Part shown: piece by piece, positions 25,172 through 37,935 of the stretch
Layout: the number at the start of each line of letters is the position of its first letter
How positions within the stretch are numbered: the first letter of the stretch is position 1
Origin: Gandjariella thermophila
Lineage (GTDB): Bacteria > Actinomycetota > Actinomycetes > Mycobacteriales > Pseudonocardiaceae
Assembly: GCF_005405885.1 (NCBI RefSeq)
Contig: NZ_BJFL01000004.1
Coordinates: forward strand, 1-64,000
Direction: 5' to 3'
DNA length: 64,000 bases
Notes under the pieces: model-generated
The model's input: the letters and a program-made list of their open reading frames with translations, nothing else
Told to the model about the DNA's origin: nothing
Database searches by the model: none
Position numbers and translations under genes: made by a program

Positions 25172-27499
25172 TTGTCAAATACTGCCCGAACGAATGAACG
25201 CGGACCGGACGGCGGCGCCCAGGTCGACGAGCTGAGCCGGGAGCAGGAGTACGTGTCCGCCCTGTACGCCAAGGTGGACCGGATCCGCAAGGAAACCTCG
25301 GCGCGGCTGGCTGAGGTGCTGCGTAACGGCGGAGGCACCCATCAGGCCCGGGTGGAACGCGACGTGGCCACCGCCATGCACACCGAGCAACTCGCCCAAC
25401 TCTCCGCCGCGGAAAGCGGGCTGTGCTTCGGCCGGCTGGACTTCGACAACGGGGAGCGCACCTACATCGGCCGCATCGGGCTGTTCGACGAGGACAACGA
25501 CTATGAACCGCTGCTGATGGACTGGCGGGCACCCGCCGCCCGCCCGTTCTACCTGGCCACCGCCGCCTCCCCGGACGGCGTGCACCGGCGCCGGCACATC
25601 CGCACCAGGCTGCGCCGGGTGGTCGGGGTGGACGACGAGGTTCTCGACCTGACCGCGGCCGAGCGCTCCGGCCGGCACGCCGACCTCACCGGCGAGGCCA
25701 CCCTGCTCGCGGCGCTGAACGCCAGCCGCACCGGCCAGATGAGCGACATCGTGGCCACCATCCAGGCCGAGCAGGACCACGTGATCCGCGACGGCCTGAA
25801 CGGCGTGCTGGTGGTGCAGGGCGGGCCGGGTACTGGTAAGACGGCCGTGGCGCTGCACCGGGCCGCGTACCTCCTCTACACGCACCGGCGGCGGCTGTCC
25901 ACCAGCGGCGTGCTGGTGGTCGGCCCGAACGCCACCTTCCTCCGCTACATCAGCCAGGTGCTGCCCTCGCTGGGCGAGACCAGCGTGGTGCTGTCCACCG
26001 TCGGCGACCTCTACCCCGGGCTGTCCGCCACCGGGCGGGAACCGGTGGAGACCGCCGAACTCAAGGGCCGGCTGGTGATGGCCGACGTGGTCGCCGCGGC
26101 GGTGCGGGACCGGCAGCGGGTGCCGAACGCGAAGCACCCCATGGAGATCCCGTTCGAGCGGGAGACGCTGTTCCTGGACCGGAAGATCGCCACGCAGGCA
26201 CGGACCCGGGCCCGCCGCTCCCGCCAGCCGCACAACCTGGCCCGGCGGGTGTTCGCGCGCGAGGTGATCGGCGCGCTGGCCGAGCAGTTCGCCGACCGGC
26301 TCGGCCGCAGCCTGCTCTCCGGCGCCGACCTGGACGACATCCGTGCCGAGCTACGCGCCGACGACGGCGTGCGGGCCGCGCTGGACGAGCTGTGGCCGGT
26401 GCTCACCCCGCGGCAACTGCTCGCCGACCTGTACGCGGACGAGCGGCGGCTCGCCGTGGCCGCCAAGGCGCTGACCCCCGAGGAGCGTGCGCTGCTGCGG
26501 CGCGAGCCGGGTGCGCCGTGGACCCCGGCCGACGTGCCGCTGCTGGACGAGGCCGCGGAACTGCTCGGCGAGGACGACACCGAGGAGCGGGCCCGCGCCG
26601 AGCGGCAGCGCCGGCAGGCGCTCGACTACGCCCAGGGCGTCCTGGACATCCTCGAGGTGGACGACAACACCGACCCGGACGTGCTGCTGGCCACCGACGT
26701 GGTGGCCGCCCACCAACTCGCCGAACGGCACTCCGAGCGCGGCTACGAGACCGCGGCCGAGCGGGCGGCGGCCGATCGCACCTGGACGTTCGGCCACGTC
26801 ATCGTGGACGAGGCGCAGGAACTGTCGGCGATGGCGTGGCGGGCGCTGATGCGCCGCTGCCCCAGCCGCTCGATGACCGTGGTCGGCGACATCGCGCAGA
26901 CCGGCGACCGCGCCGGCGCGTCGTCCTGGGCCGAGGTGCTCGAGCCGTACGTCGGCGACCGCTGGCGGCTGGCCCAGCTCACCGTGAACTACCGGACCCC
27001 GGCGGAGATCGCGGGCGTCGCCGCCGACGTGCTGGACGCCATCGACCCGGACCTGGAGCCGCCGCGGGCGGTGCGGGAAACCGGCGTGCCGCCGTGGGTG
27101 ACCGGCCTGCCGGCGTCCGAACTGGTCGGCGGCCTGGCCGACCTGGTGGCCAGGGAGGTCGCCGAGATCGGGGACGGCCGGCTGGCGGTACTCGCCCCGC
27201 CCGCCCTGGTGGACGACCTCGCCGGGGTGGTGGCGCCGGCCGCGCCAGGCGAGGGCGAGCCGGTGGACCTGGTGGAGGCGCAGGTGGTGCTGCTCACCGT
27301 GGCCCAGGCCAAGGGCCTGGAGTTCGACTCGGTGATCGTGGTCGACCCGCAGGGCATCCTGGACGCCTCACCGCGCGGCGCGAACGACCTGTACGTCGCC
27401 CTCACCCGCGCCACCCAGCGGCTCGGCGTGGTGCACACCGGCCGGCTGCCCGCCGTGCTCGGCCGGCTGGCGGAGCCGGCCGACGTGGCGGCCAGCTAA
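25172..27499 (+). CDS. helR: HelD/HelR-type RNA polymerase recycling ATPase
   Basis: A UvrD/Rep-like protein of 775 residues. The N-terminal coiled-coil arm ('LSREQEYVSALYAKVDRIRKETSARLAEVL') can enter the RNA polymerase secondary channel; then 'YEPLLMDWRAPAARPFYLATA', Walker A 'VVQGGPGTGKTAVALHRAAYLLYTHRRRL', Walker B 'VIVDEAQELSAMAWRALMRRCP', 'VVGDIAQTGDR' and C-terminal 'QAKGLEFDSVIVVDPQGIL' and 'LYVALTRATQRLGVVH'. HelD/HelR frees stalled RNA polymerase from DNA; Streptomyces HelR also protects it from rifamycins. The start is TTG 25172 after CAGGGGACG. I see no rifamycin-associated element upstream. Assignment to HelR over other HelD classes is from overall layout. Confidence 0.87.
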   Translation: MSNTARTNERGPDGGAQVDELSREQEYVSALYAKVDRIRKETSARLAEVLRNGGGTHQARVERDVATAMHTEQLAQLSAAESGLCFGRLDFDNGERTYIGRIGLFDEDNDYEPLLMDWRAPAARPFYLATAASPDGVHRRRHIRTRLRRVVGVDDEVLDLTAAERSGRHADLTGEATLLAALNASRTGQMSDIVATIQAEQDHVIRDGLNGVLVVQGGPGTGKTAVALHRAAYLLYTHRRRLSTSGVLVVGPNATFLRYISQVLPSLGETSVVLSTVGDLYPGLSATGREPVETAELKGRLVMADVVAAAVRDRQRVPNAKHPMEIPFERETLFLDRKIATQARTRARRSRQPHNLARRVFAREVIGALAEQFADRLGRSLLSGADLDDIRAELRADDGVRAALDELWPVLTPRQLLADLYADERRLAVAAKALTPEERALLRREPGAPWTPADVPLLDEAAELLGEDDTEERARAERQRRQALDYAQGVLDILEVDDNTDPDVLLATDVVAAHQLAERHSERGYETAAERAAADRTWTFGHVIVDEAQELSAMAWRALMRRCPSRSMTVVGDIAQTGDRAGASSWAEVLEPYVGDRWRLAQLTVNYRTPAEIAGVAADVLDAIDPDLEPPRAVRETGVPPWVTGLPASELVGGLADLVAREVAEIGDGRLAVLAPPALVDDLAGVVAPAAPGEGEPVDLVEAQVVLLTVAQAKGLEFDSVIVVDPQGILDASPRGANDLYVALTRATQRLGVVHTGRLPAVLGRLAEPADVAAS

Positions 27500-28377
27500 C
27501 CCGTCGCGTCGATATGCTCCGCGGCCAGCCGGGCGACCAGTTCGGGTTGGCTGCGCGGCAGCCAGTGTCCACCCCGGACGGTGCGCACCGTCAGGTTCGA
27601 CGCCCACCGGCGGATGTCGGTCTGCATCGGCACCGAGACGAAGAGGTCGTTGGTGGGCGCGATCACCTGCACCGGCAGGTCGACGCCGCGCTGCTGCGGG
27701 CCGGACAGCCGCCGCGGAATGTTCGCCCGGTACAGCTGCAGGCCGTTGAGGTAGTCGGCCGGCGACCGCTGGCCCGGCGGCGTGGCACTGCCGTCCCCGC
27801 TCCGCTCCAGTGCGGCGAGCAGGGCCGTGCCGGCGCCGCTGCGCCAGAACAGCTCCGGCAGCAGCGGTAACTGGAAGAAGAACACGTACCAGGACTTGCC
27901 CAGTTGCCGGCCCAGTTCGGCGAGCGCCGCGGCGTCCGGGCGCAGCCGGGACCGGACGAAGTACCCGACGTGGTCGAGGCACGGGCCGGAGATCGAACTG
28001 AAGGTGGCGATCCGGTCGCGCAGCCGCTGGCCGGTGACGAAGTGCCAGCCCTGCACCGAGCCCCAGTCGTGCGCGAGCAGGTGCACGGGCTCGGTCGGAC
28101 TGACCGCGTCCAGCACCGCGGCGAAGTCCCGCTCCAGCCGGTCGAGCCGGTAGGCGGCGCGGCCGCGCGGCTTGTCCGAGCCGCCGGTGCCGCGGACGTC
28201 GTAGGTCACCACGTGGAAGCGGTCGGCCAGCGCGGCCACCACACCGTCCCAGAGGCTGCTGTGGTCGGGATAGCCGTGCAGGCACACCACCGTCGGGTGG
28301 GCGCGGTCGCCGTGCTCGCGCACCAGCAACCGCACCCCGTCACCGGTCACCAGGCGCCCGCGGGTCTCGGTGTTCAT
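27496..28377 (-). CDS. Alpha/beta hydrolase (epoxide-hydrolase-like)
   Basis: The 293-residue hydrolase has the oxyanion motif 'HGYPDHSSLWDGV', 'YDVRGTGGSDKP', the nucleophile elbow 'LLAHDWGSVQGW' with Asp as nucleophile (as in epoxide hydrolases and haloalkane dehalogenases), and a C-terminal 'VRGGHWLPRSQPELV' with the catalytic His. A lid domain lies between. It has no signal peptide, so it is cytosolic. In some actinobacteria this domain is fused to a short-chain dehydrogenase; here it stands alone. The 3' end overlaps helR by 4 bases, tail to tail. The substrate is unknown. Confidence 0.88.
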   Translation of the reverse strand: MNTETRGRLVTGDGVRLLVREHGDRAHPTVVCLHGYPDHSSLWDGVVAALADRFHVVTYDVRGTGGSDKPRGRAAYRLDRLERDFAAVLDAVSPTEPVHLLAHDWGSVQGWHFVTGQRLRDRIATFSSISGPCLDHVGYFVRSRLRPDAAALAELGRQLGKSWYVFFFQLPLLPELFWRSGAGTALLAALERSGDGSATPPGQRSPADYLNGLQLYRANIPRRLSGPQQRGVDLPVQVIAPTNDLFVSVPMQTDIRRWASNLTVRTVRGGHWLPRSQPELVARLAAEHIDATG

Positions 28378-28460
28378 CGGCCACAGTCATACCGCATCGA
28401 GCGGGCCACCATGCCGGACGTTGCGCAACCGATGCCGACGCTGCCCGCTTCGGTTGTCCG

Positions 28461-28997
28461 TCAGCCGCCCCGCCGCCGCCCGCCGGCGTCGATCCGTGCG
28501 GCGGCCCATTCGGCCCATTCGCGGTGCATCGCGGTGGCTCGCAGCCCCCACTCCAGGGTCAGCCGCCCGTACCGGGACAGCGGGCTGTCGTCCCACTCGA
28601 TCGACTCGTCCAGCTTGCGCAGCGACTCGTGCCGCTCGGCGGCGAGCGCCGCCTCCCGGTCCAGGAACGCCCGGGCCTGCGCGGGCTCAACCAGGTCCAG
28701 CAGGAAGACCCGGAGCAGCATGTCGTTGCGGCGGTTGCGCTCCGGCTCCTCCTCGGTCAGCCAGCGCTGTAGCTCGGCGCGCCCGGTGTCGGTGATGGCG
28801 TATTCCTTGCGCCCCCGCGGCCCCTCGGCGACGACGCTGATCAACCCCGCGTCGGCGAGCCGGTTCAGCTCCCCGTAGAGCTGGCTCTGGGTCGCCGGCC
28901 ACACGTTGGCCAGCGAGCCCTGAAACGTGCCGAGCAGGTCGTAGCCGCTGGCCGAGCCGTGCGCCAGCAGGCCGAGCAGGGCATGCCGAAGACTCAT
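28461..28997 (-). CDS. PadR-family transcriptional regulator
   Basis: The 178-residue regulator has the N-terminal PadR winged helix 'MSLRHALLGLLAHGSASGYDLLGTFQGSLANVWPATQSQLYGELNRLADAGLISVVAEGPRGRKEYAITDTGRAELQRWL' and a C-terminal helical dimerisation domain ('MLLRVFLLDLVEPAQARAFLDREAALAAERHESL'). ATG 28997 has AGGA 7 bases before it; the GTG at 29003 has poor spacing. It is divergent from the carotenoid-oxygenase operon, with PadR-type palindromes between, so it is likely the repressor of both. Confidence 0.92.
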   Translation of the reverse strand: MSLRHALLGLLAHGSASGYDLLGTFQGSLANVWPATQSQLYGELNRLADAGLISVVAEGPRGRKEYAITDTGRAELQRWLTEEEPERNRRNDMLLRVFLLDLVEPAQARAFLDREAALAAERHESLRKLDESIEWDDSPLSRYGRLTLEWGLRATAMHREWAEWAAARIDAGGRRRGG

Positions 28998-29020
28998 GGC
29001 CACATCCTACATTCCGGTAT

Positions 29021-29069
29021 TGACATGTCATCTTAGTACCTTCTAGCTTTGATATGTCAGTAGTGACAT
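29021..29069. promoter_or_regulatory. PadR-type operators between divergent genes
   Basis: Two related sites are visible: TGACATGTCA (29021-29030, perfect 10-bp palindrome) and ATGTCA-GTAG-TGACAT (29054-29069). The second fits the ATGT-N8-ACAT pattern reported for PadR regulators and covers the start codon of the small membrane-protein gene. Together they offer two binding sites about 36 bases apart, one for each divergent promoter. Confidence 0.7.
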
Positions 29070-29302
29070 GTGCGCGCGAGGTGTGGTCCAGCCCGATCTT
29101 CCTGCGGATCAACGTGGTGATCACCGCCGTGTGGGCGGCCAGCTTCACCGTCACCGCCGCCGCGCTGGCCGTCGCCGGCACCCTCGCGCCGCACGCGACG
29201 GTGCCGGCCGTCGCGCTCAACGTCGCCGGCATCGCGCTGCCCGCGGTGTTCACCGCCCGCTACCCGGGGATCGTCGCGGCCCGCCACGGCGTGGCCGCCT
29301 GA
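29054..29302 (+). CDS. Small two-helix membrane protein
   Basis: An 82-residue protein dominated by two hydrophobic segments ('FLRINVVITAVWAASFTVTAAALAVAG' and 'ATVPAVALNVAGIALPAVFTARY'). No family is recognised, but the length and helices resemble small actinobacterial integral membrane proteins. No Shine-Dalgarno precedes the ATG, which lies inside a PadR-type palindrome, so the mRNA may be leaderless; a GTG at 29063 is an alternative. It is 15 bases upstream of the carotenoid oxygenase and probably co-transcribed. Confidence 0.65.
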   Translation: MSVVTCAREVWSSPIFLRINVVITAVWAASFTVTAAALAVAGTLAPHATVPAVALNVAGIALPAVFTARYPGIVAARHGVAA

Positions 29303-29317
29303 GTCGAGGGAGTCCCG

Positions 29318-30652
29318 ATGTCCGAACGCACGATGTACCTGGCCGGCCACCTGGCGCCGGTGCCCGACGAGATCGACGCCACCGACCTGGAGGTCACCGG
29401 CACCCTGCCGGGCGAGCTGACCGGGCGCTACTTCCGCAACGGCCCCAACCCGTTGCCCGGCGAGGACGGCGGGCACTGGTTCGTCGGGCACGGCATGATC
29501 CACGGGGTGCGGCTGGTCGACGGCCACGCGGAGTGGTACCGCAACCGCTGGGTGCGCACCCGCGAACTGGACGGTGCGCCCGCCGTCCGCGCCGACGGCA
29601 CCCGCGACCTGACCGCGAACCCGGCCAACACCCACGTCGTCCAGCACGGCGAGCGGATCCTCGCGCTGTGCGAGGCCGGCCTGCCCTACGTGCTGACCCC
29701 CGAACTGGACACGGTCGGCCCGTGCGACTTCGGCGGCCGGCTCACCACCGCGATGACCGCGCACCCCAAGGAGGACCCGGACACCGGGGAGTTGCACTTC
29801 TTCGGCTACGGCGTCACGCCGCCGTTTCTCACCTACCACCGGCTGTCCGCGTCCGGCGACCTGGTGGAGAGCCGGGAGATCACGGTGCCCGGGCCGACCA
29901 TGATGCACGACTTCGCGATCACCGAGCGGCACGTGGTCTGGCTGGACCTGCCGGTGGTGTTCGACGTCGCGCTGCTCGGCCGCGGCATGCCGTTCCGCTG
30001 GGACGACGGGTACGGCGCCCGGCTCGGCGTGATGCGCCGGGACGGCCGCGCCGAGGTCACCTGGTTCGACGTCGAGCCGTGCTACGTGTTCCACGTCGGC
30101 AACGCGCACGAGGACGCGGGTGGCCGGATCATGCTGGACGCGGTCCGCTACGGCGCCGCGGACTTCGCCGGCCTGTGGGGCCGGATCGGCGGGTCGCGCA
30201 ACCCGGCGGCGGCCGCGGCGGACTCCGCCGGCGGCCGGCTGCACCGCTGGACCCTGGAGCCGGCCACCGGGACGCGCCGGGAGGAGCCGCTGGACGACCG
30301 GGCGGTGGAGTTCCCCACGCTCAACGACGCGCGCACCGGTCGGGCCAACCGCTACCTGTACACCGTCACCGAGGGCGGGATCGTCAAGTACGACAGGCAC
30401 ACCGGCGAGGTGCGCACGCACCGTCTCAGCGAGGGCGCCGCCGCGGGCGAGGCGGTGTTCGTGCCGGCCGAGGGCGCCCGCGCGGAGGACGACGGCTGGC
30501 TGCTGTCCGTGGTAAGCGACCCCGCCGGCACCGGCTCCGAACTGCTCGTGCTGGACGCCGCGGAACTGACCGGGCAGGCCGCGGTCCGGCTGCCCCGCCG
30601 GGTGCCGGCCGGGTTCCACGGCAGCTGGATTCCGGATCCCGAGCGCGGCTGA
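29318..30652 (+). CDS. Carotenoid oxygenase family protein
   Basis: A protein of 444 residues of the RPE65/CCD family, a seven-bladed propeller with a non-haem Fe(II) held by four His. Supporting stretches are 'GRYFRNGPNPLPGEDGGHWFVGHGMIHGVRL', 'TAHPKEDPDTGELHFFGYG', 'TMMHDFAITERHVVWLDLPV', 'YVFHVGNAHED' and, at the C-terminus, 'VPAGFHGSWIP' with the last His. The enzyme cleaves carotenoids, stilbenes or related C=C bonds with O2. It is downstream of the small membrane protein and under likely PadR control. No carotenoid synthesis genes are adjacent; since PadR proteins often sense phenolics, a phenylpropanoid-like substrate is conceivable but only inferred. Confidence 0.9.
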   Translation: MSERTMYLAGHLAPVPDEIDATDLEVTGTLPGELTGRYFRNGPNPLPGEDGGHWFVGHGMIHGVRLVDGHAEWYRNRWVRTRELDGAPAVRADGTRDLTANPANTHVVQHGERILALCEAGLPYVLTPELDTVGPCDFGGRLTTAMTAHPKEDPDTGELHFFGYGVTPPFLTYHRLSASGDLVESREITVPGPTMMHDFAITERHVVWLDLPVVFDVALLGRGMPFRWDDGYGARLGVMRRDGRAEVTWFDVEPCYVFHVGNAHEDAGGRIMLDAVRYGAADFAGLWGRIGGSRNPAAAAADSAGGRLHRWTLEPATGTRREEPLDDRAVEFPTLNDARTGRANRYLYTVTEGGIVKYDRHTGEVRTHRLSEGAAAGEAVFVPAEGARAEDDGWLLSVVSDPAGTGSELLVLDAAELTGQAAVRLPRRVPAGFHGSWIPDPERG

Positions 30653-30690
30653 CCCGTCGCGGCGGCGTGGGCGGCGAGACATGTACCGGC

Positions 30691-30704
30691 TAGAACGTGT
30701 TACA
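30691..30704. promoter_or_regulatory. KstR-like operator
   Basis: TAGAACGTGTTACA fits the KstR consensus TNNAACNNGTTNNA at every fixed position. It is 132 bases upstream of the SDR start. KstR represses cholesterol/steroid catabolism genes in mycobacteria and rhodococci. A 14-bp consensus with 8 fixed bases can occur by chance, so this is suggestive only. Confidence 0.5.
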
Positions 30705-30835
30705 GTTTCGCTCCCGCGTCACCGGAGGAGCACCGTTGGAGAGCCGATGATGTCGTCAGCTCGCGGCACCCGCAGCCATCACCCCCGCGCGCCCCGGCTG
30801 ACGGTCGCGCGCACCCTCGCGGAAGGGAACGCGCC

Positions 30836-31624
30836 GTGATCCTCGACCGGTTCCGCGTCACGGACCGGGTCGCCGTCGTCACCGGGGCCGGGCGGGGCAT
30901 CGGCGCTGCCACCGCCGTGGCGCTGGCCGAGGCGGGCGCGGACGTGGTGCTGTCGGCGCGCACCGAGACGCAGCTACACGAGGTCGCCGCCCGGGTGGCC
31001 GCGGCGGGACGCAAGGCGCGAATCGTCGCGGCCGACCTCAGCGACCTGGACGCGGCCGCCTCCCTCGCCGAGGCGGCCCGGGAGGCGTTCGGCCGGCTGG
31101 ACATCGTGGTCAACAACGTCGGCGGCACCATGCCGCGCGCGTTCCTGGACACCTCGACCCGCCACCTCGAGGACGCGTTCCACTTCAACGTGGCGACCGG
31201 GCACGCACTCACCCGCGCCGCGGCGCCGATCATGCTGGAGGGCCGTGGCGGGTCGGTGGTCAACATCTCCTCGACCATGGGCCGGCTCGCCGGCCGCGGG
31301 TTCGTCGCCTACGGCACGGCGAAGGCGGCGCTCGCCCACTACACCCGGCTCGCCGCCGCTGATCTCGCGCCGAAGGTGCGGGTCAACGCGATCTCGGTGG
31401 GCTCGGTGGCCACCTCGGCGCTAGAGATCGTCACCGGCGACGACGAGTTGCGCGGCCGGATGGAGCGGGCCACCCCGCTGCGCCGGATCGGCGACCCCGA
31501 GGACATCGCCGCCGCCGTGCTCTACCTGGCCTCGCCGGCCGGCGGCTACGTCACCGGCAAGCTGCTGGAGGTCGACGGCGGGCTGCAGGCGCCCAACCTC
31601 GACCTCGGCCTGCCGGACCTGTGA
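30836..31624 (+). CDS. Short-chain dehydrogenase/reductase
   Basis: A classical SDR of 262 residues: cofactor motif '[30 protein letters not shown]' (TGxxxGxG), 'NNVGG' (NNAG variant), catalytic Ser in '[15 protein letters not shown]', Tyr and Lys in '[16 protein letters not shown]', and a C-terminal '[27 protein letters not shown]'. The GTG start follows GGAAGGGAACGCGCC. It is probably a 3-hydroxyacyl or hydroxysteroid dehydrogenase; the KstR-like site upstream and the partner downstream support a role in steroid or fatty-acid breakdown, which is inferred. It is 10 bases upstream of the next gene. Confidence 0.9.
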
Positions 31625-31634
31625 GGTGGTCGGG

Positions 31635-32708
31635 ATGACCTACCGCGTGGTGCAGTGGAGCACCGGGCACGTGGGCAGGCACGCGATCGCCGGCATCGAC
31701 GCGCGGCCCGACCTGGAACTGGCCGGGGTGTGGGTGTCCGACCCCGCCAAGGTGGGCCGGGACGCCGGCCGGCTCGCCGGTCTGGACCGGGACCTCGGCG
31801 TGGCCGCCGCCTCCGACGCGGACGCGCTGCTGGCCGCCGACCCGGACTGCGTGGTCTACACCGCGATGGCCGACAACCGGCTCACCGAGGCCCTGGACGA
31901 CCTGTGCCGCATCCTCCGCCGGGGGATCAACGTGGTCGCCAGCGGGCCGGTGTTCCTGCAGTTCCCGGACGGGGTGGCGCCGCCGGAACTGGTGGACCCG
32001 GTGCGCCGGGCCGCGGTCGAGGGCGGGGCGTCGCTGTGGGTCAACGGCGTCGACCCCGGCTTCGCCAACGACGCGCTTCCGCTGCTGCTCAGCGGCGTGT
32101 GCGAGCGGATCGACCAGGTGCGCTGCGCGGAGATCCTGGACTACAGCAGCTATGACAACCCGACGGTGCTGTTCGACATCATGGGCTTCGGCAAGCCGCT
32201 GGACGACATCCCGATGCTGCTGCAGCCCGGGGTGCTGTCCCTGGCATGGGGCAGCGTGGTGCGCCAACTGGCCGCGGGGCTGGACGTCGAGTTGGACGGC
32301 GTCGAGGAGCACTACGAGCGGCTGCCCGCGCCCGAGGAGCTGCGGCTGTCCTGCGGCACGGTAGGCAGCGGCACCGCGGCGGGCCTGCGCTTCGAGGTGC
32401 GCGGTATGCGCGCCGGCCGGGCGGTGTGCGTGCTGGAGCACGTCACCCGCCTGCACCCGGACATCGGCCCGGACTGGCCGCAGCCCGCCGGGCAGGGCTG
32501 CTACCGGGTGGAGATCTCCGGCGAACCGAACTACACGCTGGACCTGCGACTGCTCGGCACCGACGGCGACCACAACACCGCCGGGCTGAAGGCCACCGCG
32601 ATGCGGCTGGTCAACGCGGTCCCCACGGTGGTCGAGGCGCCCAGCGGCCTGCTCACCGCGCTGGACCTGCCGCTGGTCACCGGCCGCGGCCTGGTCCGGT
32701 GCACCTGA
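31635..32708 (+). CDS. DapB-like NAD(P)-dependent oxidoreductase
   Basis: The 357-residue protein has an N-terminal Rossmann fold 'YRVVQWSTGHVGRHAIAGIDARPDLELAGVWV' (GxGxxG variant) and a C-terminal domain like that of 2,4-diaminopentanoate dehydrogenase/dihydrodipicolinate-reductase-related proteins ('GVDPGFANDALPLLLSGVCERIDQVRCAEILDYSSYDNPTVLFDIMGFG'). Actinobacterial members are numerous and often sit among lipid- and steroid-degradation genes; their substrates are mostly unknown. ATG 31635 is chosen over GTG 31626 because of the GAGGTGG located 5-11 bases ahead. It forms an operon with the SDR. Confidence 0.85.
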   Translation: MTYRVVQWSTGHVGRHAIAGIDARPDLELAGVWVSDPAKVGRDAGRLAGLDRDLGVAAASDADALLAADPDCVVYTAMADNRLTEALDDLCRILRRGINVVASGPVFLQFPDGVAPPELVDPVRRAAVEGGASLWVNGVDPGFANDALPLLLSGVCERIDQVRCAEILDYSSYDNPTVLFDIMGFGKPLDDIPMLLQPGVLSLAWGSVVRQLAAGLDVELDGVEEHYERLPAPEELRLSCGTVGSGTAAGLRFEVRGMRAGRAVCVLEHVTRLHPDIGPDWPQPAGQGCYRVEISGEPNYTLDLRLLGTDGDHNTAGLKATAMRLVNAVPTVVEAPSGLLTALDLPLVTGRGLVRCT

Positions 32709-32762
32709 TCGGCGCGCGCCTCCCGGGCGAGACCCGGCACGCCACGGCACGGTCCAACCCCG

Positions 32763-33959
32763 CTAGCCTCCGGCGGCCAGCCGGCGCTCCACCAGGTCGA
32801 GGAAGTCGTCCACGTCGTCCATGCGGTACCCGCGCGCGCCCGGCGGGGCGTCACCGAACCGCACGCCGGCCACCTCCTCGGCGGTCAGCGTGTCCTCGCC
32901 GCGCAGCGTGGCCTCCACGCGGTCCAGCAGGGCGTCCACCTCCACCTCGTCGTAGCCGCGCTCGCCCGGTTCGGGCGGCCGGAACGCGACCAGTCGGACG
33001 TCCTCGGCGGTCAGCCCGGGGTGGGCCGCCGTGGCCGCCCGGCCAACCGGTCGCGCCATCGGTTGCGCAGCGGGTTGGCCGGCGGGCTGTGCTGCCGGTG
33101 ACGCGGCCGGCTGGTCGGCCTGCGGTCGGACCGCCGGTGGTGGCGGTGCCTCCGGCGGCGCCGGCGGCGGGGTGGTCGGTGGCGGGCACGGCGTCGCGAT
33201 CGGCTGCGGCCCGGTGGGCGACTTCCGCGCCGACCGGCGCAGGGTGACCGCGATGAGGGATAGGAAGGCGTCCACGCCGCCGCGGTCGTAGCCGCGCTCG
33301 CCGACCGGGGCCGGGCGGAACCTCACCTCGTAGACCTCGCGCGCGGTCAGCGGGTTCTCGCCGCGCAGCGCGTCGTGCACCCGGTCGATGAATGCGTCGA
33401 CCTCCGCCTTGTCGTAGCCGAGTTCGCCGTTGGCGGAGTCGTCGAACGACACGTCGGCCAGCGACGCCGGCGGGCCGGCAGCGGGCGGCCCCGGTTCGGC
33501 CTCCGGCACCGGTCGTGGGCCGGTGTCCCGGCCGAGGCCACCCGCCGGCGGGTAACCCTCCCTGGGCGGGTAACCCTCCCCTGCCCCCGGCACGAAGTCC
33601 TGGCCCGGTGCGTAGCCCTCGCCCGGTGGGAAGTCCGGCACCGATCCCAGGTTGGGCACGGACGCCAGGCCGGGATCGACCGGCTCCAGCGCGTCCACGC
33701 CCGACTCGAGCGCCTCCAGCGTCTCCACGATGCGGTCGACGAACTCGTCCACCTCGGGCTTGTAGTAACCGCCCTGCGGCACCGGCGACTCACGGAAGTC
33801 GGCCTGCCGCGCCTCCCGGGCGGTGAGCACGTCGCGGCCGCGCAGCGCGGCCTCCGCCCGGCCGAGGAACAGGTCCACGTCGGGTTCGTAGTACCCGCGC
33901 TGGTTCCTCGGCGGTCGGTGGAATCCGACGTCCCGCACTTCCTCGGGGGTAAGCCCCAC
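32763..33959 (-). CDS. DivIVA-motif repeat protein (six repeats)
   Basis: From GTG 33959 (GGGAGA 4-9 bases upstream) the protein has 398 residues. The DivIVA N-terminal motif, LTxxxV-x-xxF-x-xP-xx-RGYxxxxVDxFLxxxxxxL, occurs six times in three pairs at about residues 3-39, 45-81, 166-198, 204-240, 316-352 and 358-394. Linkers are Pro/Gly-rich: one has 'GEGYPPREGYPP', another is almost pure Pro/Ala/Gln. DivIVA/Wag31 N-termini bind curved membrane at cell poles; the long coiled coil of true DivIVA is missing here. It is divergent from a YtrA-type regulator. The open frame runs further upstream, but family members start with the LTPE motif. Confidence 0.82.
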   Translation of the reverse strand: MGLTPEEVRDVGFHRPPRNQRGYYEPDVDLFLGRAEAALRGRDVLTAREARQADFRESPVPQGGYYKPEVDEFVDRIVETLEALESGVDALEPVDPGLASVPNLGSVPDFPPGEGYAPGQDFVPGAGEGYPPREGYPPAGGLGRDTGPRPVPEAEPGPPAAGPPASLADVSFDDSANGELGYDKAEVDAFIDRVHDALRGENPLTAREVYEVRFRPAPVGERGYDRGGVDAFLSLIAVTLRRSARKSPTGPQPIATPCPPPTTPPPAPPEAPPPPAVRPQADQPAASPAAQPAGQPAAQPMARPVGRAATAAHPGLTAEDVRLVAFRPPEPGERGYDEVEVDALLDRVEATLRGEDTLTAEEVAGVRFGDAPPGARGYRMDDVDDFLDLVERRLAAGG

Positions 33960-34121
33960 GCTGTCTCCCGGAACCCGCTGCCGTGACGGACTGATCGCGG
34001 GGGCGCCCGCCCTCGCCCCCGACAAGGGGCTCACCGCCGGACATCGCTGGCCCGCCAGGTCCGCCGGCTGCCCACCGCACATGGTAGAGACCCCGAACCG
34101 CAATCCACTTGTCATGTTGTT

Positions 34122-34144
34122 CTGTTCTATACATACTAGAACAG
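34122..34144. promoter_or_regulatory. Inverted repeat, candidate YtrA/GntR operator
   Basis: CTGTTCTA (34122-34129) and TAGAACAG (34137-34144) are perfect 8-bp arms around a 7-base AT-rich spacer. The centre is 31 bases before the GntR start codon, where the promoter should be. Autoregulation of the GntR gene is the likely use; the site also lies upstream of the divergent DivIVA-repeat gene. Confidence 0.72.
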
Positions 34145-34163
34145 TGCGGCATGGGAGTGGATC

Positions 34164-34565
34164 GTGATCCTCAGCGTGGACCTGACCAGTGATGTCCCGA
34201 TCTACCAGCAGATTCGGGACCGGGTGGTGGAGGCGATCGCCGAGGGCCGGCTCGCCGAGGGCAGCCCGCTGCCGTCCACCCGGCAGCTTGCGGTCGACCT
34301 GGGCATCAACTTCCACACCGTGAACAAGGCGTACGACCTGCTTCGGCGGCAGGGGCTGCTCCGGCTGAACCGGAAGAGCGGCGCGGTGGTGCGCCGCGAC
34401 GCCGGTTCCGGGCCGCCCGAGGCGGACTTCACCGGCGACTGGCAGGCGCGGCTGCGCACGCTGCTCGCCGAGGCGGTCGCGCACGGCGTCGACGGGGACA
34501 CCGTCGTGGCGGCATGCCGCGAGGTGCTGGCGTCGTTCGCCACGCCCCAGGAACAGCGTCCCTGA
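34164..34565 (+). CDS. GntR-family regulator, YtrA subfamily
   Basis: The 133-residue regulator has 'ILSVDLTSDVPIYQQIRDRVVEAIAEGRLAEGSPLPSTRQLAVDLGINFHTVNKAYDLLRRQGLLRLNRKSGAVV' as winged helix and only a short helical tail, as in YtrA-type GntR proteins. These normally control a neighbouring ABC transporter or membrane protein. The GTG start follows GGGAGTGGATC. The gene directly downstream is a truncated membrane protein. Confidence 0.92.
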   Translation: MILSVDLTSDVPIYQQIRDRVVEAIAEGRLAEGSPLPSTRQLAVDLGINFHTVNKAYDLLRRQGLLRLNRKSGAVVRRDAGSGPPEADFTGDWQARLRTLLAEAVAHGVDGDTVVAACREVLASFATPQEQRP

Positions 34566-34595
34566 CTTCGTTGGAGCGGAGAGCATGACCGCGCA

Positions 34596-34949
34596 GTGGG
34601 TGGTTCTCAACGGCAGACCTGGCAGGCCAGCGCGCACGTTTCGCTGCTTCCGGTGCTGCTTCCGGTGCTGGTCGGCGTGGTGGTCGTCCTGGCGGTGGGG
34701 TTGCGCACCGGCCAGCTCGGCAGCCGGCTGCCCGCCGGCGACGCCGACGAGGACACCGGCGTGGTGCAGCGGGACGACGACCGGTACTGGCGCGGCGGCA
34801 TGGTGTACGTCAACCGGGAGGACCCGGCGGTGCTGGTGCCCAAGCGGTTCGGCTACGGCTGGACGGTGAACTTCGGCAACCCGCGCGCCCGGTGGCTGCT
34901 GCTGCCGATCGTCGCGCTGGCGGTGGTGGTGCGGGTGCTGGCGCACTGA
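34596..34949 (+). CDS. DUF5808-type membrane protein, N-terminal part missing
   Basis: A frame of 117 residues with two hydrophobic helices ('SLLPVLLPVLVGVVVVLAVGL' and 'ARWLLLPIVALAVVVRVLAH') and between them the DUF5808 signature 'DDDRYWRGGMVYVNREDPAVLVPKRFGYGWTVNFGNP'. Full-length relatives next to YtrA-type GntR genes are usually two to three times longer, with several helices before this point. The only good ribosome-binding site (GGAGCGGAGAGC) serves ATG 34585, which is in a different frame. An internal deletion that joined the original start region to the C-terminal part out of frame would explain both facts. It may be a pseudogene. Confidence 0.7.
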   Translation: MGGSQRQTWQASAHVSLLPVLLPVLVGVVVVLAVGLRTGQLGSRLPAGDADEDTGVVQRDDDRYWRGGMVYVNREDPAVLVPKRFGYGWTVNFGNPRARWLLLPIVALAVVVRVLAH

Positions 34950-34977
34950 GCCTCGCCACCGGGTTCGCCGCGCCCGG

Positions 34978-35397
34978 TCAGTCGTGCCGGTGCCGGTACT
35001 CCACCCGCCAGACGAACTTCAGACCCGACCAGTCTTCGCCGAGGGCGGCGACCTTCACGTCCACCAGTCCGGCGGGCAGCAGCAGTTCCCGCACCCCGTT
35101 CTCGGTGACGTCGCTGGTGTGCCCGGCCGCGCGGCGCGGCCAGGCAATCCACAGCGCGCCGTCGTGCGGTAGCTCGTGCACGAAGCTCGGCGTGTCCCGG
35201 GCCAGCGCGTCCACCGAGCGGTAGAAGGCGACCACGATGTTCGCCCGGCGCAGGTCGCCCGCGCCGACCTCCACCCCCTCCGGTAGGTCGGGAATCTCCC
35301 ACCCCGGCGGGGAATGCAGCAGGATCAGGCGGTGATACGCCCGCACGCCCAGCTTCCTGGCCAGCGGCGTACCCGAATACCCTTGGTCCGCGATCAT
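34978..35397 (-). CDS. DUF3052 family protein
   Basis: The 139-residue protein has the family start 'GYSGTPLARKLGVRAYHRLILLHSPPGWEI' and the later 'ANIVVAFYRSVDALARDTPSFVHELPHDGALWIAWPRRAAGHTSDVTENGVRELLLPAGLVDVKVAALGEDWSGLKFVWR'. DUF3052 proteins are small and cytosolic with no proven function. It stands alone, convergent with the truncated membrane-protein gene. Confidence 0.92.
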   Translation of the reverse strand: MIADQGYSGTPLARKLGVRAYHRLILLHSPPGWEIPDLPEGVEVGAGDLRRANIVVAFYRSVDALARDTPSFVHELPHDGALWIAWPRRAAGHTSDVTENGVRELLLPAGLVDVKVAALGEDWSGLKFVWRVEYRHRHD

Positions 35398-35611
35398 GGC
35401 CTCCGTTCCCGGGTGCGGCGCCGCCTCCTCCCGCCGGCCGCCCCGCCCTCATCGCCCGGCGATGTGGCCGTCACAGCACCGGAAACCACCCTACGACGCT
35501 GTCGATCGCGTGGCGCGCCACCAATGGTGACGCAGGGAGGCAGGGTCGGCCGTCTGGCACAATCGGCATCGCCGCCTTCCGCCTCCGCCCGGCAGACCCC
35601 ACGGGAGTTTC

Positions 35612-36301
35612 GTGATCCGTCCACGCTCGCTGCTGGCCGTGGGCCTGCTGGCCGCGCTCATCCTGGTCGCCGTGCTGCTGCCGGTGCCCGATCCGGCCCA
35701 GTTGCGGGCCTGGGCGCTCGCCGCCGGGCCGGCCGCCCCGGCGCTGCTGTTCGCCGCCTACGCGGTGGCCACCGTCGCTCCGCTGCCGCGCACGGTGTTC
35801 ACCCTGGCCGCCGGCCTGCTGCTGGGCACGGTGGCCGGCGTCACGGTGGCCGTCGGGGCCACCGCGGTGAGCGCCGCGCTCGGTTTCGGGCTGGCCCGCG
35901 CGGTCGGCCGCGACCTGGTCGCGCGGCGGCTGGACCACCGCGCGGTGCGCACCGTGGACACGCAACTGGCGGAGGGCAACTGGTTGACCGTGGCGTCGCT
36001 GCGGCTGATCCCGGTGGTGCCGTTCGCGCCGCTGAACTACTGCTGCGGCGTCTCATCGGTGCGGTTCCTGCCCTACCTGGCCGGCACCGTGGCCGGCAGC
36101 CTGCCCGGCACCACCGCCGTGGTGGTGTTCGGCGACTCGCTGACCGGCAGCACCTCCCCCGCCCTGCTGGCCGTGTCGGCGTGCTGCGCCGCCGTCGGCG
36201 CGACCGGGCTGTACCTGGCGATCCGCCGCCGGTCCCGCACCGGCGACCGGCCCGATCCCGCCGCCGCGCCGCCGGAGCCGGAGGCGCTGACCCGGCCCTG
36301 A
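35612..36301 (+). CDS. TVP38/TMEM64 (DedA-like) membrane protein
   Basis: The 229-residue protein has five or six hydrophobic helices and the SNARE-associated/DedA region 'AYAVATVAPLPRTVFTLAAGLLLGTVAGVTVAVGATAVSAALGFGLARAVGRDLVARRL' followed by 'LRLIPVVPFAPLNYCCGVSSVRFLPYLAGTVAGSLPGTTAVVVFGDSL' (the conserved R-x-x-P-x-x-P-x-x-x-x-N pattern). The family is linked to phospholipid scrambling and membrane homeostasis. The GTG start has GGGAG 4 bases upstream. It stands alone. Confidence 0.9.
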   Translation: MIRPRSLLAVGLLAALILVAVLLPVPDPAQLRAWALAAGPAAPALLFAAYAVATVAPLPRTVFTLAAGLLLGTVAGVTVAVGATAVSAALGFGLARAVGRDLVARRLDHRAVRTVDTQLAEGNWLTVASLRLIPVVPFAPLNYCCGVSSVRFLPYLAGTVAGSLPGTTAVVVFGDSLTGSTSPALLAVSACCAAVGATGLYLAIRRRSRTGDRPDPAAAPPEPEALTRP

Positions 36302-36558
36302 ACCGGGAACCGGACGCGTTGGTTTCGCCGGGCTGCTCGCGGGGCGGATGCTGCAGGCATCGGCCTGGGCCGGCGCCGCTGGCGATCGCCACGGCCAGGG
36401 ACGCGCTGCCGGCGGAGCGCGCCGGCCGGGCCGCCGCCGGGCGTCCAAGGAGACCGCGACCAGATCGGTGCCGCGCCTCGTTGTGCGTCAGTCCAACGAG
36501 CCCGCGCCCAGCTCCCGGGCGGCGAGGGCCCATCTGACCTCCATCAGGGTGTCCACCG

Positions 36559-37935
36559 CTACGCGGGCAGCAGCCGCGTGATCACCTGGGAGAGCTGCCG
36601 GATGTTGCGGCATTCGTACATGGTCACCACCTCGGCGTAAGCGCGGGCCGCGGAGTCGCCGGTGTGCCACAGCGGCTCCGCCTCCGGGTTGAGCCAGTAG
36701 ACGTGCCGCGCCCGGTCGGCGATGCGGCGCAGCGCGCGCAGGTTGGGGTCGCCGCCGTTGGTGCGGCCGTCGCCGAGGATGAGCACCGAGGTGCGCGGGC
36801 CCACCGCGTCCAACCACCGCTCCGCGAAGGTGGCCAGCGCGTTGCCGTAGTCGCTGTTGGTGCCCCACCAAGTGAGCGTGGCCTCCCGGAAGATTCGGCT
36901 GGCCAGGCCCTCTGGATCGTCCTCGCCGGCCTCGACGAGGTGGGTGATCTCGTCGGTGACGCCGACGAAGGCGAACACGCGTACGCGGCTGAACTGGTCC
37001 CGCAGCGCCTGCACCAGCAGCAGGGTGAACTGCGCGAACCCGGCCACCGACCCGGACATGTCGCACAGCAGCACCAGGTCTGGCCGGCCCTGCCGGCGGC
37101 GGCGGAACGCCGGGCGCACCGGCACGCCCGAGGTGGCCAGCGAGCGGCGCATGGTGCGGCGCAGGTCGATCTGGCCGCGGCGGGCCCGGCGCCGCCGCGC
37201 GGCCAGCCGGGTGGCGAGCTTGCGCGCCAGCGGCTGGATGGTGCGCCGCATCTCGGCGAGCTGTGCCCGCCCGGCGGTGGTGAAGCCGACCAGGTCGGTG
37301 GACGGTGCCACGCCGTAGCGGGACACCCGCTCCCGGCCGCGCAGCTCCGCGGTGCGCCGGCGGGCCTCCTGCTGCACCAGGTCACGGAACCGCGCGACGC
37401 GGCGGGCGGCCTCGCCGCGGTCCACTTCCTCGGCCAGCGGATCCTCCGTGCCGGCCCGGTCGCGCATCGCCGCCAGCACCCGGGCCAGCAGCGACTCCGG
37501 TCGCAACCGGTCCAGCGTCTGGTAGGCCGACCAGCCCGCCATGGGTCCGCCACCGGCGCCCGAACCGAACCGGCCGAGCATGTCCACCCCGGACGCGGCG
37601 AGCGCGCGCAACCGCTCGTCCCGACCCTCGGCGAGGGCTGCCACCAGCAGGTCCCGCCAGGCGTCCAGGTCGTCCCCGGGCGGCGGGTCGAGCGCTGTCT
37701 GCCTCACCCCGACGGCGGCGGGAAAGTACAGCTCGAACACACCGTCGAAGACGGCTCGCTCGCCGGAGCGGCGCAGCAGGGTGGCGGCGAGGGACTCGCG
37801 GAGCTGGTCGCGGTCGGCGAGCCCGACCACCCGCAGCGCCGCGGCGGCGTCCACCGTCTCGCTCGGACCGACCGGGACACCGTGCTCCCGCAGCGCGGTG
37901 ACGAACTCCACCAGCCGGTCCGGCAGCCCCGTCAT
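36559..37935 (-). CDS. VWA-domain CoxE-like protein
   Basis: The protein has 458 residues. The N-terminal helical region 'LVEFVTALREHGVPVGPSETVDAAAALRVVGL' is typical of CoxE-like proteins; the C-terminal von Willebrand A domain contains 'DLVLLCDMSGSVAGFAQFTLLLVQAL' (MIDAS, D-x-S-x-S) and 'TWWGTNSDYGNALATF' (MIDAS Thr region). It is 22 bases downstream of the MoxR-type AAA+ gene, a standard pair that acts as a chaperone for metal-enzyme maturation or complex assembly. The client is not evident; the molybdenum hydroxylase at 49434 is 11 kb away. Confidence 0.92.
   Translation of the reverse strand: MTGLPDRLVEFVTALREHGVPVGPSETVDAAAALRVVGLADRDQLRESLAATLLRRSGERAVFDGVFELYFPAAVGVRQTALDPPPGDDLDAWRDLLVAALAEGRDERLRALAASGVDMLGRFGSGAGGGPMAGWSAYQTLDRLRPESLLARVLAAMRDRAGTEDPLAEEVDRGEAARRVARFRDLVQQEARRRTAELRGRERVSRYGVAPSTDLVGFTTAGRAQLAEMRRTIQPLARKLATRLAARRRRARRGQIDLRRTMRRSLATSGVPVRPAFRRRRQGRPDLVLLCDMSGSVAGFAQFTLLLVQALRDQFSRVRVFAFVGVTDEITHLVEAGEDDPEGLASRIFREATLTWWGTNSDYGNALATFAERWLDAVGPRTSVLILGDGRTNGGDPNLRALRRIADRARHVYWLNPEAEPLWHTGDSAARAYAEVVTMYECRNIRQLSQVITRLLPA

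Follow-up and report, generated by a model that had tools for sequence, protein, structure and literature searches.

A six-domain protein of very probable PolyDIV identity, with DivIVA-like domains in three pairs, from Gandjariella thermophila

The window analyzed here, a stretch of 64 kb (64,000 nucleotides) from Gandjariella thermophila, holds a minus-strand gene for a protein with six DivIVA-like domains, and a regulator gene on the opposite strand. Features are listed by window position:

32763..33959, minus strand: PolyDIV gene, 398 aa, GTG start (ORF call, domain models and codon composition)
33843..33953, minus strand: DivIVA domain 1, first half of pair 1
33717..33827, minus strand: DivIVA domain 2, second half of pair 1
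33465..33716, minus strand: linker 1, 84 aa, Pro+Gly 43%, predicted disordered
33366..33470, minus strand: DivIVA domain 3, first half of pair 2; lowest score, without the LTA start
33240..33350, minus strand: DivIVA domain 4, second half of pair 2
33015..33239, minus strand: linker 2, 75 aa, Pro/Ala/Gln-rich, Pro+Gly 37%, predicted disordered
32904..33014, minus strand: DivIVA domain 5, first half of pair 3; top score
32778..32888, minus strand: DivIVA domain 6, second half of pair 3
34123..34143, no strand: perfect palindrome TGTTCTA-N7-TAGAACA (7-base arms, 7-base spacer), between the GntR and PolyDIV genes
34164..34565, plus strand: GntR-family regulator gene, 133 aa, divergent from the PolyDIV gene

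The GTG start lies at 33959 and the stop codon ends at 32763, in agreement with the coordinates and minus strand of the original prediction. The sequence GGGAG, 5 bases 5' of the GTG, reads as ribosome-binding-like. Third-position GC was 0.90 in the ORF vs. 0.76 in its in-frame 5' extension, and reached 0.92-0.95 across the three folded pairs, with the frame unbroken for 398 codons. A longer gene (ORF up to 34946) was discarded on codon composition and on the GGGAG at the 33959 start. The wrong strand or frame was also discarded, as plus-strand frame 1 of 32763-33959 holds two stops. In a six-frame scan of the 64-kb window, DivIVA domains were found only in the 398-aa minus-strand frame.

The protein was scored by TIGR03544 (NCBIfam) in six stretches (172.5 bits, E = 8.7e-52, cut-off 22) and by Pfam DivIVA PF05103 in five stretches (62.2 bits, cut-off 28). 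A profile built exclusively from 56 domains of other loci detected all six, with 47.2, 34.9, 29.8, 49.0, 57.4 and 53.5 bits for domains 1-6. A chance or composition artefact was discarded: the top score over 2000 shuffles of the protein was 10.6 bits, against 29.8-57.4 for the real domains. Six motifs in three pairs had been read from the sequence by the original prediction, and the HMM scan that it proposed as a check thus found DivIVA similarity with both the TIGR03544 and PF05103 models. The profile limits (residues 3-39, 45-81, 164 or 166 to 198, 204-240, 316-352 and 358-394) agree with the predicted boundaries. Connectors were 5, 5 and 5 residues within pairs, and 84 and 75 residues between pairs; composition (43% and 37% Pro+Gly) and AlphaFold disorder bear out the description of the latter as Pro/Gly-rich linkers. 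The strict and extended PolyDIV pattern, GY[DN]xx[QE]V[DN], was matched at residues 181 and 335, i.e., in 2 of the 6 copies, and the remaining four deviate at one or two pattern positions and keep GY, V and D.

Proteins with several DivIVA copies are already described in the literature as a family. PolyDIV was named in 2023 by Martinez-Goikoetxea and Lupas for actinobacterial proteins with 2-8 paired DivIVA-like domains, the majority of sequences having four, with pairs that are predicted to assemble inside one chain (PMC9858780). A UMP kinase gene lies close to most of the PolyDIV clusters described, and the available parts of the paper propose a role in division and as hubs and report no functional experiment (PMC9858780). 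Further work on PolyDIV was not found among the openly licensed papers listed; PMC11571769, in its available parts, cites PMC9858780 without using the name. The window protein is very probably a PolyDIV protein of six domains, with the pairs as heads on linkers. It falls inside the 2-8 range, has an even domain number, and shows short turns within pairs and long linkers between them. It differs in having six domains where the majority have four, in carrying the strict pattern in only two of its copies (the motif itself being present in the protein), and in lacking a UMP kinase among ten of the twelve neighbor ORFs between 26045 and 37935, a trait that is common in the family and not defining. 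The six-domain DivIVA-repeat architecture is therefore already known in kind from the published PolyDIV family, and the repeated motif can no longer be seen as an odd exception to DivIVA, as it had been; an NCBIfam repeat model (TIGR03543, DivIVA domain repeat protein) also exists. TIGR03543 gave a partial match of 98.5 bits, below its cut-off of 154.2, so that this model would not name the window protein, and TIGR03544 (DivI1A domain) is far above cut-off in its six stretches.

Comparisons were also made with the single-head relatives. Wag31/DivIVA of actinobacteria shares a homologous head domain, but carries a single head together with a coiled-coil part, whereas the window protein has six heads and no helix longer than 20 residues, and most of the lipid-loop residues are gone from its domains. 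The Wag31/DivIVA model NF050102 scored 128.7 bits against a cut-off of 260, so the six-headed protein does not class as an orthologue. GpsB of Firmicutes shares the head fold and the pocket residues Y23, D29 and mostly D33, but its chains are short, carry a single head each, and form dimers and hexamers (PMC6335420); its model NF010725 likewise scored below cut-off (62.1 vs. 91 bits) and does not class the protein as an orthologue.

For structure prediction, AlphaFold models of the whole protein, run with two relatives, gave three confident units joined by disordered linkers. Over blocks of ten residues of the whole protein, pLDDT was 67-94 in the units, with 58 at the 311-320 edge, and fell below 50 at residues 88-168 and most of 246-314. 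Mean pLDDT of the five whole-protein models was 56.7-65.4 and pTM 0.29, a low value of the kind expected from loose beads. Pair 3, run by itself with 30 other pairs, was predicted with pLDDT 91.4 and pTM 0.80. The three units and the pair 3 model fit the single-chain pair folding described for PolyDIV; the two halves of a pair would then close on each other within one chain, each half resembling one chain of the DivIVA/GpsB head dimer. An absence of a coiled coil had been predicted. This holds for a long coiled coil, the longest predicted helix being 20 residues (226-245); each motif is followed in the model by a helix of its own of 15-20 residues, about two heptads.

The best solved match by sequence search was Wag31 (6lfa, E 3.9e-6). 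In Foldseek the Wag31 head (6lfa) ranked first, followed by GpsB heads (E 0.06-1.4 for these top rows), and unrelated folds began at E 3.6 (5.4 in another Foldseek search). The maximum Z in VIA-align was 3.8, for 6gqn_A (rmsd 1.9, 42 aligned) and 6lfa_B (rmsd 5.8, 45 aligned), for GpsB and Wag31. The unrelated rice PLA2 scored close to these, at Z 3.1 (rmsd 3.3, 64 aligned) and 3.0, and HIV reverse transcriptase reached Z 2.3 and 2.0. The fold-search results fit a DivIVA/GpsB-head fold but do not prove it.

Residues of the lipid-facing loop and of the docking pocket were then counted. DivIVA and Wag31 heads bind lipid via a loop, which in Wag31 is P16-P17-I18 with K15, K20 and R21 (PMC7340271), and it had been proposed that the six copies bind several membrane sites or crowd at the cell pole. 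Loops inserting into curved membrane, with six weak sites adding up to polar or septal crowding, would be favored by this lipid binding of the heads, by R21, which is kept in 4 of the 6 domains, and by Val at position 18 in two loops. Those two are, however, the only hydrophobic residues at position 18, position 15 is basic in one domain, and position 20 is basic in none and acidic in three. Hydrophobic-18, basic-20 and basic-21 occur together in 0/6 window domains vs. 21/56 at other loci, yet the lipid-loop set is kept in the Wag31 of this same genome. The K20A mutant of Wag31 still localises to the poles and is only slightly dimmer at septa (PMC9878328), and because of this membrane contact may occur despite the missing basic residue at position 20. 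The membrane-binding reading is thereby weakened, with contact still conceivable, and as an account of the protein we consider it very unlikely.

In GpsB, Y23, D29 and D33 grip the arginine finger of a partner (S. pneumoniae numbering; PMC6335420). All six window domains have Y23, V28 and D29, and four have D33; at the other loci Y23 was counted in 54, D29 in 47 and an acidic residue at 33 in 36 of 56 domains. The full set of Y23, D29 and acidic-33 is present in 4/6 window domains and 30/56 elsewhere. The dimer fold, too, is held together by Y23 and D29 (PMC9858780), and because both have this fold role their conservation need not mean docking. The kept pocket residues are no more than suggestive of docking.

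A survey of repeat number in relatives, which the original prediction had called for, was made across 26 genomes with domain matches to the family model at E <= 1e-4. This genome had the most matches (19, vs. 2-12 in each of the other 25). The best hit of each genome was set aside (26 of 123 rows), and the 97 rows left formed 57 clusters, 38 single-domain and 19 multi-domain. At this threshold 18 of the 19 multi-domain clusters were even-numbered, and the odd one, with three, has a fourth match at E about 10; cluster counts vary with threshold, the copy on contig C17 of this genome having two domains at E <= 1e-4 and six in a looser scan. Start-to-start spacings were 117-138 bases in 30 of 40 cases and exactly 126 in 17; among those 30, one is a between-pair junction (C5 of this genome).

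Halves of pairs were compared over 31 pairs, whose rows are related and hence not independent. Mean identity was 40.9% within the same halves vs. 38.7% across halves, a difference reached by 0/2000 random swaps, and also by 0/2000 for the 26 pairs without near-duplicates, so first and second halves are distinguishable. Leave-one-locus-out assignment of halves was right for 25/31, with window pair 3 assigned wrongly. For the window alone, whose three pairs are too few to be informative, 2 of 8 odd/even arrangements reached the observed value. A tree of pairs, built to date the internal duplications, was weakly supported (17/28 inner branches < 80), and the window pairs fell in no starred set.

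PolyDIV domains were surrounded by rplY, pth and an acyl-CoA-ligase gene in 9 of the 23 sources searched. The same locus has glmU and prs in 8/9, an ABC-F gene in 8/9 and ispE in 7/9, counts that depend on stretches differing in reach. The gap holding the PolyDIV genes is mostly between pth and the ligase gene; in G006, and partly in this genome, it is between rplY and pth, and in G007 between the ABC-F and ligase genes. Around this locus the domains come as two-domain genes that stand apart and in different frames, with two such genes in G009, G022, G023 and Amycolatopsis suaedae (2+2) and three in an Amycolatopsis MAG (2+2+2), as one pair (G008), or as longer chains, with four domains in one frame in G006 (two weak) and eight in G007 (the last weak). 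This genome has a four-domain chain plus a separate two-domain gene there. By protein match and shared locus, the nearest named loci are those of Amycolatopsis. Split genes and joined chains around one locus are added evidence, from gene arrangement, that the pair may be the unit, and this evidence goes beyond the available parts of PMC9858780. The pair-per-gene arrangement, next to longer chains, offers a simple unit for study of about 115 aa.

The window gene itself is off this locus, with none of the seven locus marker genes within the 64-kb window; the six-domain C17 copy and the two-domain C52 copy are also off the rplY-pth-ligase locus. A lineage-specific duplicate, drifting and of little function, dispersed from the conserved locus, would have such a position away from the site used by nine sources, in the genome with the highest number of domain matches of the 26, and could include a copy as weak as domain 3. 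Against drift stand the intact frame of 398 codons, the strong codon bias in the folded pairs, and the invariance of Y23, V28 and D29 over all six copies, and we regard this explanation as quite unlikely.

With a PolyDIV family that is published and a function that is merely proposed, the following mode of action is put forward. A pair of DivIVA-like domains would fold back in one chain to form a pseudo-dimer, mimicking the head that DivIVA, Wag31 or GpsB build from two chains, and three such heads would hang on disordered linkers. The heads would serve, in a GpsB-like manner, as docking sites for short tails with arginine on cell-envelope or division proteins, so that one chain could offer up to six non-identical pockets and gather partners, and targeting to membrane or pole would be mainly via partners, e.g., Wag31, rather than by the protein's own loops. 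We give about even chances to such a multivalent, mainly cytosolic docking string or adaptor, judged from the residues and domain layout. The lost lipid loop and kept pocket residues make a clear prediction, docking and not membrane sensing; if true, actinobacteria have made the DivIVA head into a modular bead for docking peptides. Instead of closing on themselves, the pairs could interlock by domain swapping with Wag31 or other PolyDIV chains and so cross-link the polar DivIVA network. Two of nine predicted PolyDIV homodimers were mixed intra- and inter-chain assemblies (PMC9858780), and this genome has Wag31 and three other multi-domain loci as possible partners; the high-confidence single-chain model of a pair and the constant 5-residue turns favor closed pairs, and the swapped scaffold is held to be unlikely.

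For the genomic context, the scan covered 10 of the 12 ORFs in the interval 26045-37935. They are a piece of a UvrD-like helicase, a regulator of the PadR family, an enzyme resembling carotenoid oxygenases, a short-chain dehydrogenase, a diaminopentanoate-dehydrogenase-like protein, the divergent GntR gene together with a small protein of the DUF5808 type, one scoring slightly below the DUF3052 cut-off, a membrane protein of the VTT type and a VWA protein similar to CoxE. No penicillin-binding, division, peptidoglycan-synthesis or UMP-kinase gene was recognised among them. The divergent regulator that had been noted is the GntR-family gene at 34164..34565, and 'YtrA-type' was the original prediction's own label for it. 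Matches to it at E <= 1e-15 were absent from 20 relatives, which leaves a functional link without comparative support. No second match to the palindrome occurs in the window at <= 2 mismatches, and 100 shuffles gave 0, with a pattern written after seeing it. The palindrome overlaps the single sigma-70-like promoter match, directed at the GntR gene, and as a putative operator may be autoregulatory.

Including the window gene, this genome has four multi-domain loci, two of which (C17 and C52) adjoin penicillin-binding-protein genes. At C17, the six-domain copy and an ORF carrying a class A penicillin-binding protein are divergently oriented. At C52, a stand-alone two-domain PolyDIV gene (L068:2735-3079, plus strand) is convergent with L068:3806-5461 (minus strand), whose product has MecA_N and transpeptidase domains. 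Among the matches listed, a transpeptidase was within 5 kb of at least 2 of 19 loci, both in this genome, vs. 0.25 expected (Poisson 0.027), and of at least 2 of 4 loci in this genome alone (Poisson 0.003), counted by eye over 11 of this genome's 14 matches, with the enrichment spotted post hoc. None was seen by eye among the matches listed for the 15 multi-domain loci of other genomes. The proximity of PolyDIV and transpeptidase genes is suggestive only. A broader reading is offered tentatively, as a possibility that we rather doubt: PolyDIV would be the actinobacterial answer to GpsB, with membrane-independent strings of closed heads that collect envelope enzymes in six or more non-identical pockets, the family having expanded in this lineage to four multi-domain loci, two beside PBP genes, of which one is an unusual MurT-class A PBP fusion.

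The fusion, beside the six-domain PolyDIV paralogue, is one frame of 1144 codons (L066:1483-4917, minus strand, C17) with a MurT-type subunit and a class A PBP. Its MurT-type lipid II isoglutaminyl synthase subunit is at about 16-414, the transglycosylase at 535-702 and the transpeptidase at 794-1049, and an arginine-rich stretch precedes what reads as a membrane helix. A match spanning the fusion junction (query residues 300-620) was found in this genome only, of 26.

Other DivIVA-type sequences were recorded alongside. A further DivIVA-motif match lies in another frame at L066:5626-5697 (plus strand), just upstream of the six-domain C17 gene, and because of this out-of-frame match the 5' end of that gene may be broken or mis-started. 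The Wag31-like single-head protein of this genome is at C29. At L076:3753-5492 (minus strand, C1) is a 579-aa DivIVA-domain protein, above cut-off for PF05103 and with partial matches to the Scy and Wag31 models below their cut-offs. In G007, a second gene, weakly matching and with degenerate DivIVA domains numbering three or four, is present at L071:9968-10447 (minus strand), near the eight-domain gene of the same locus.
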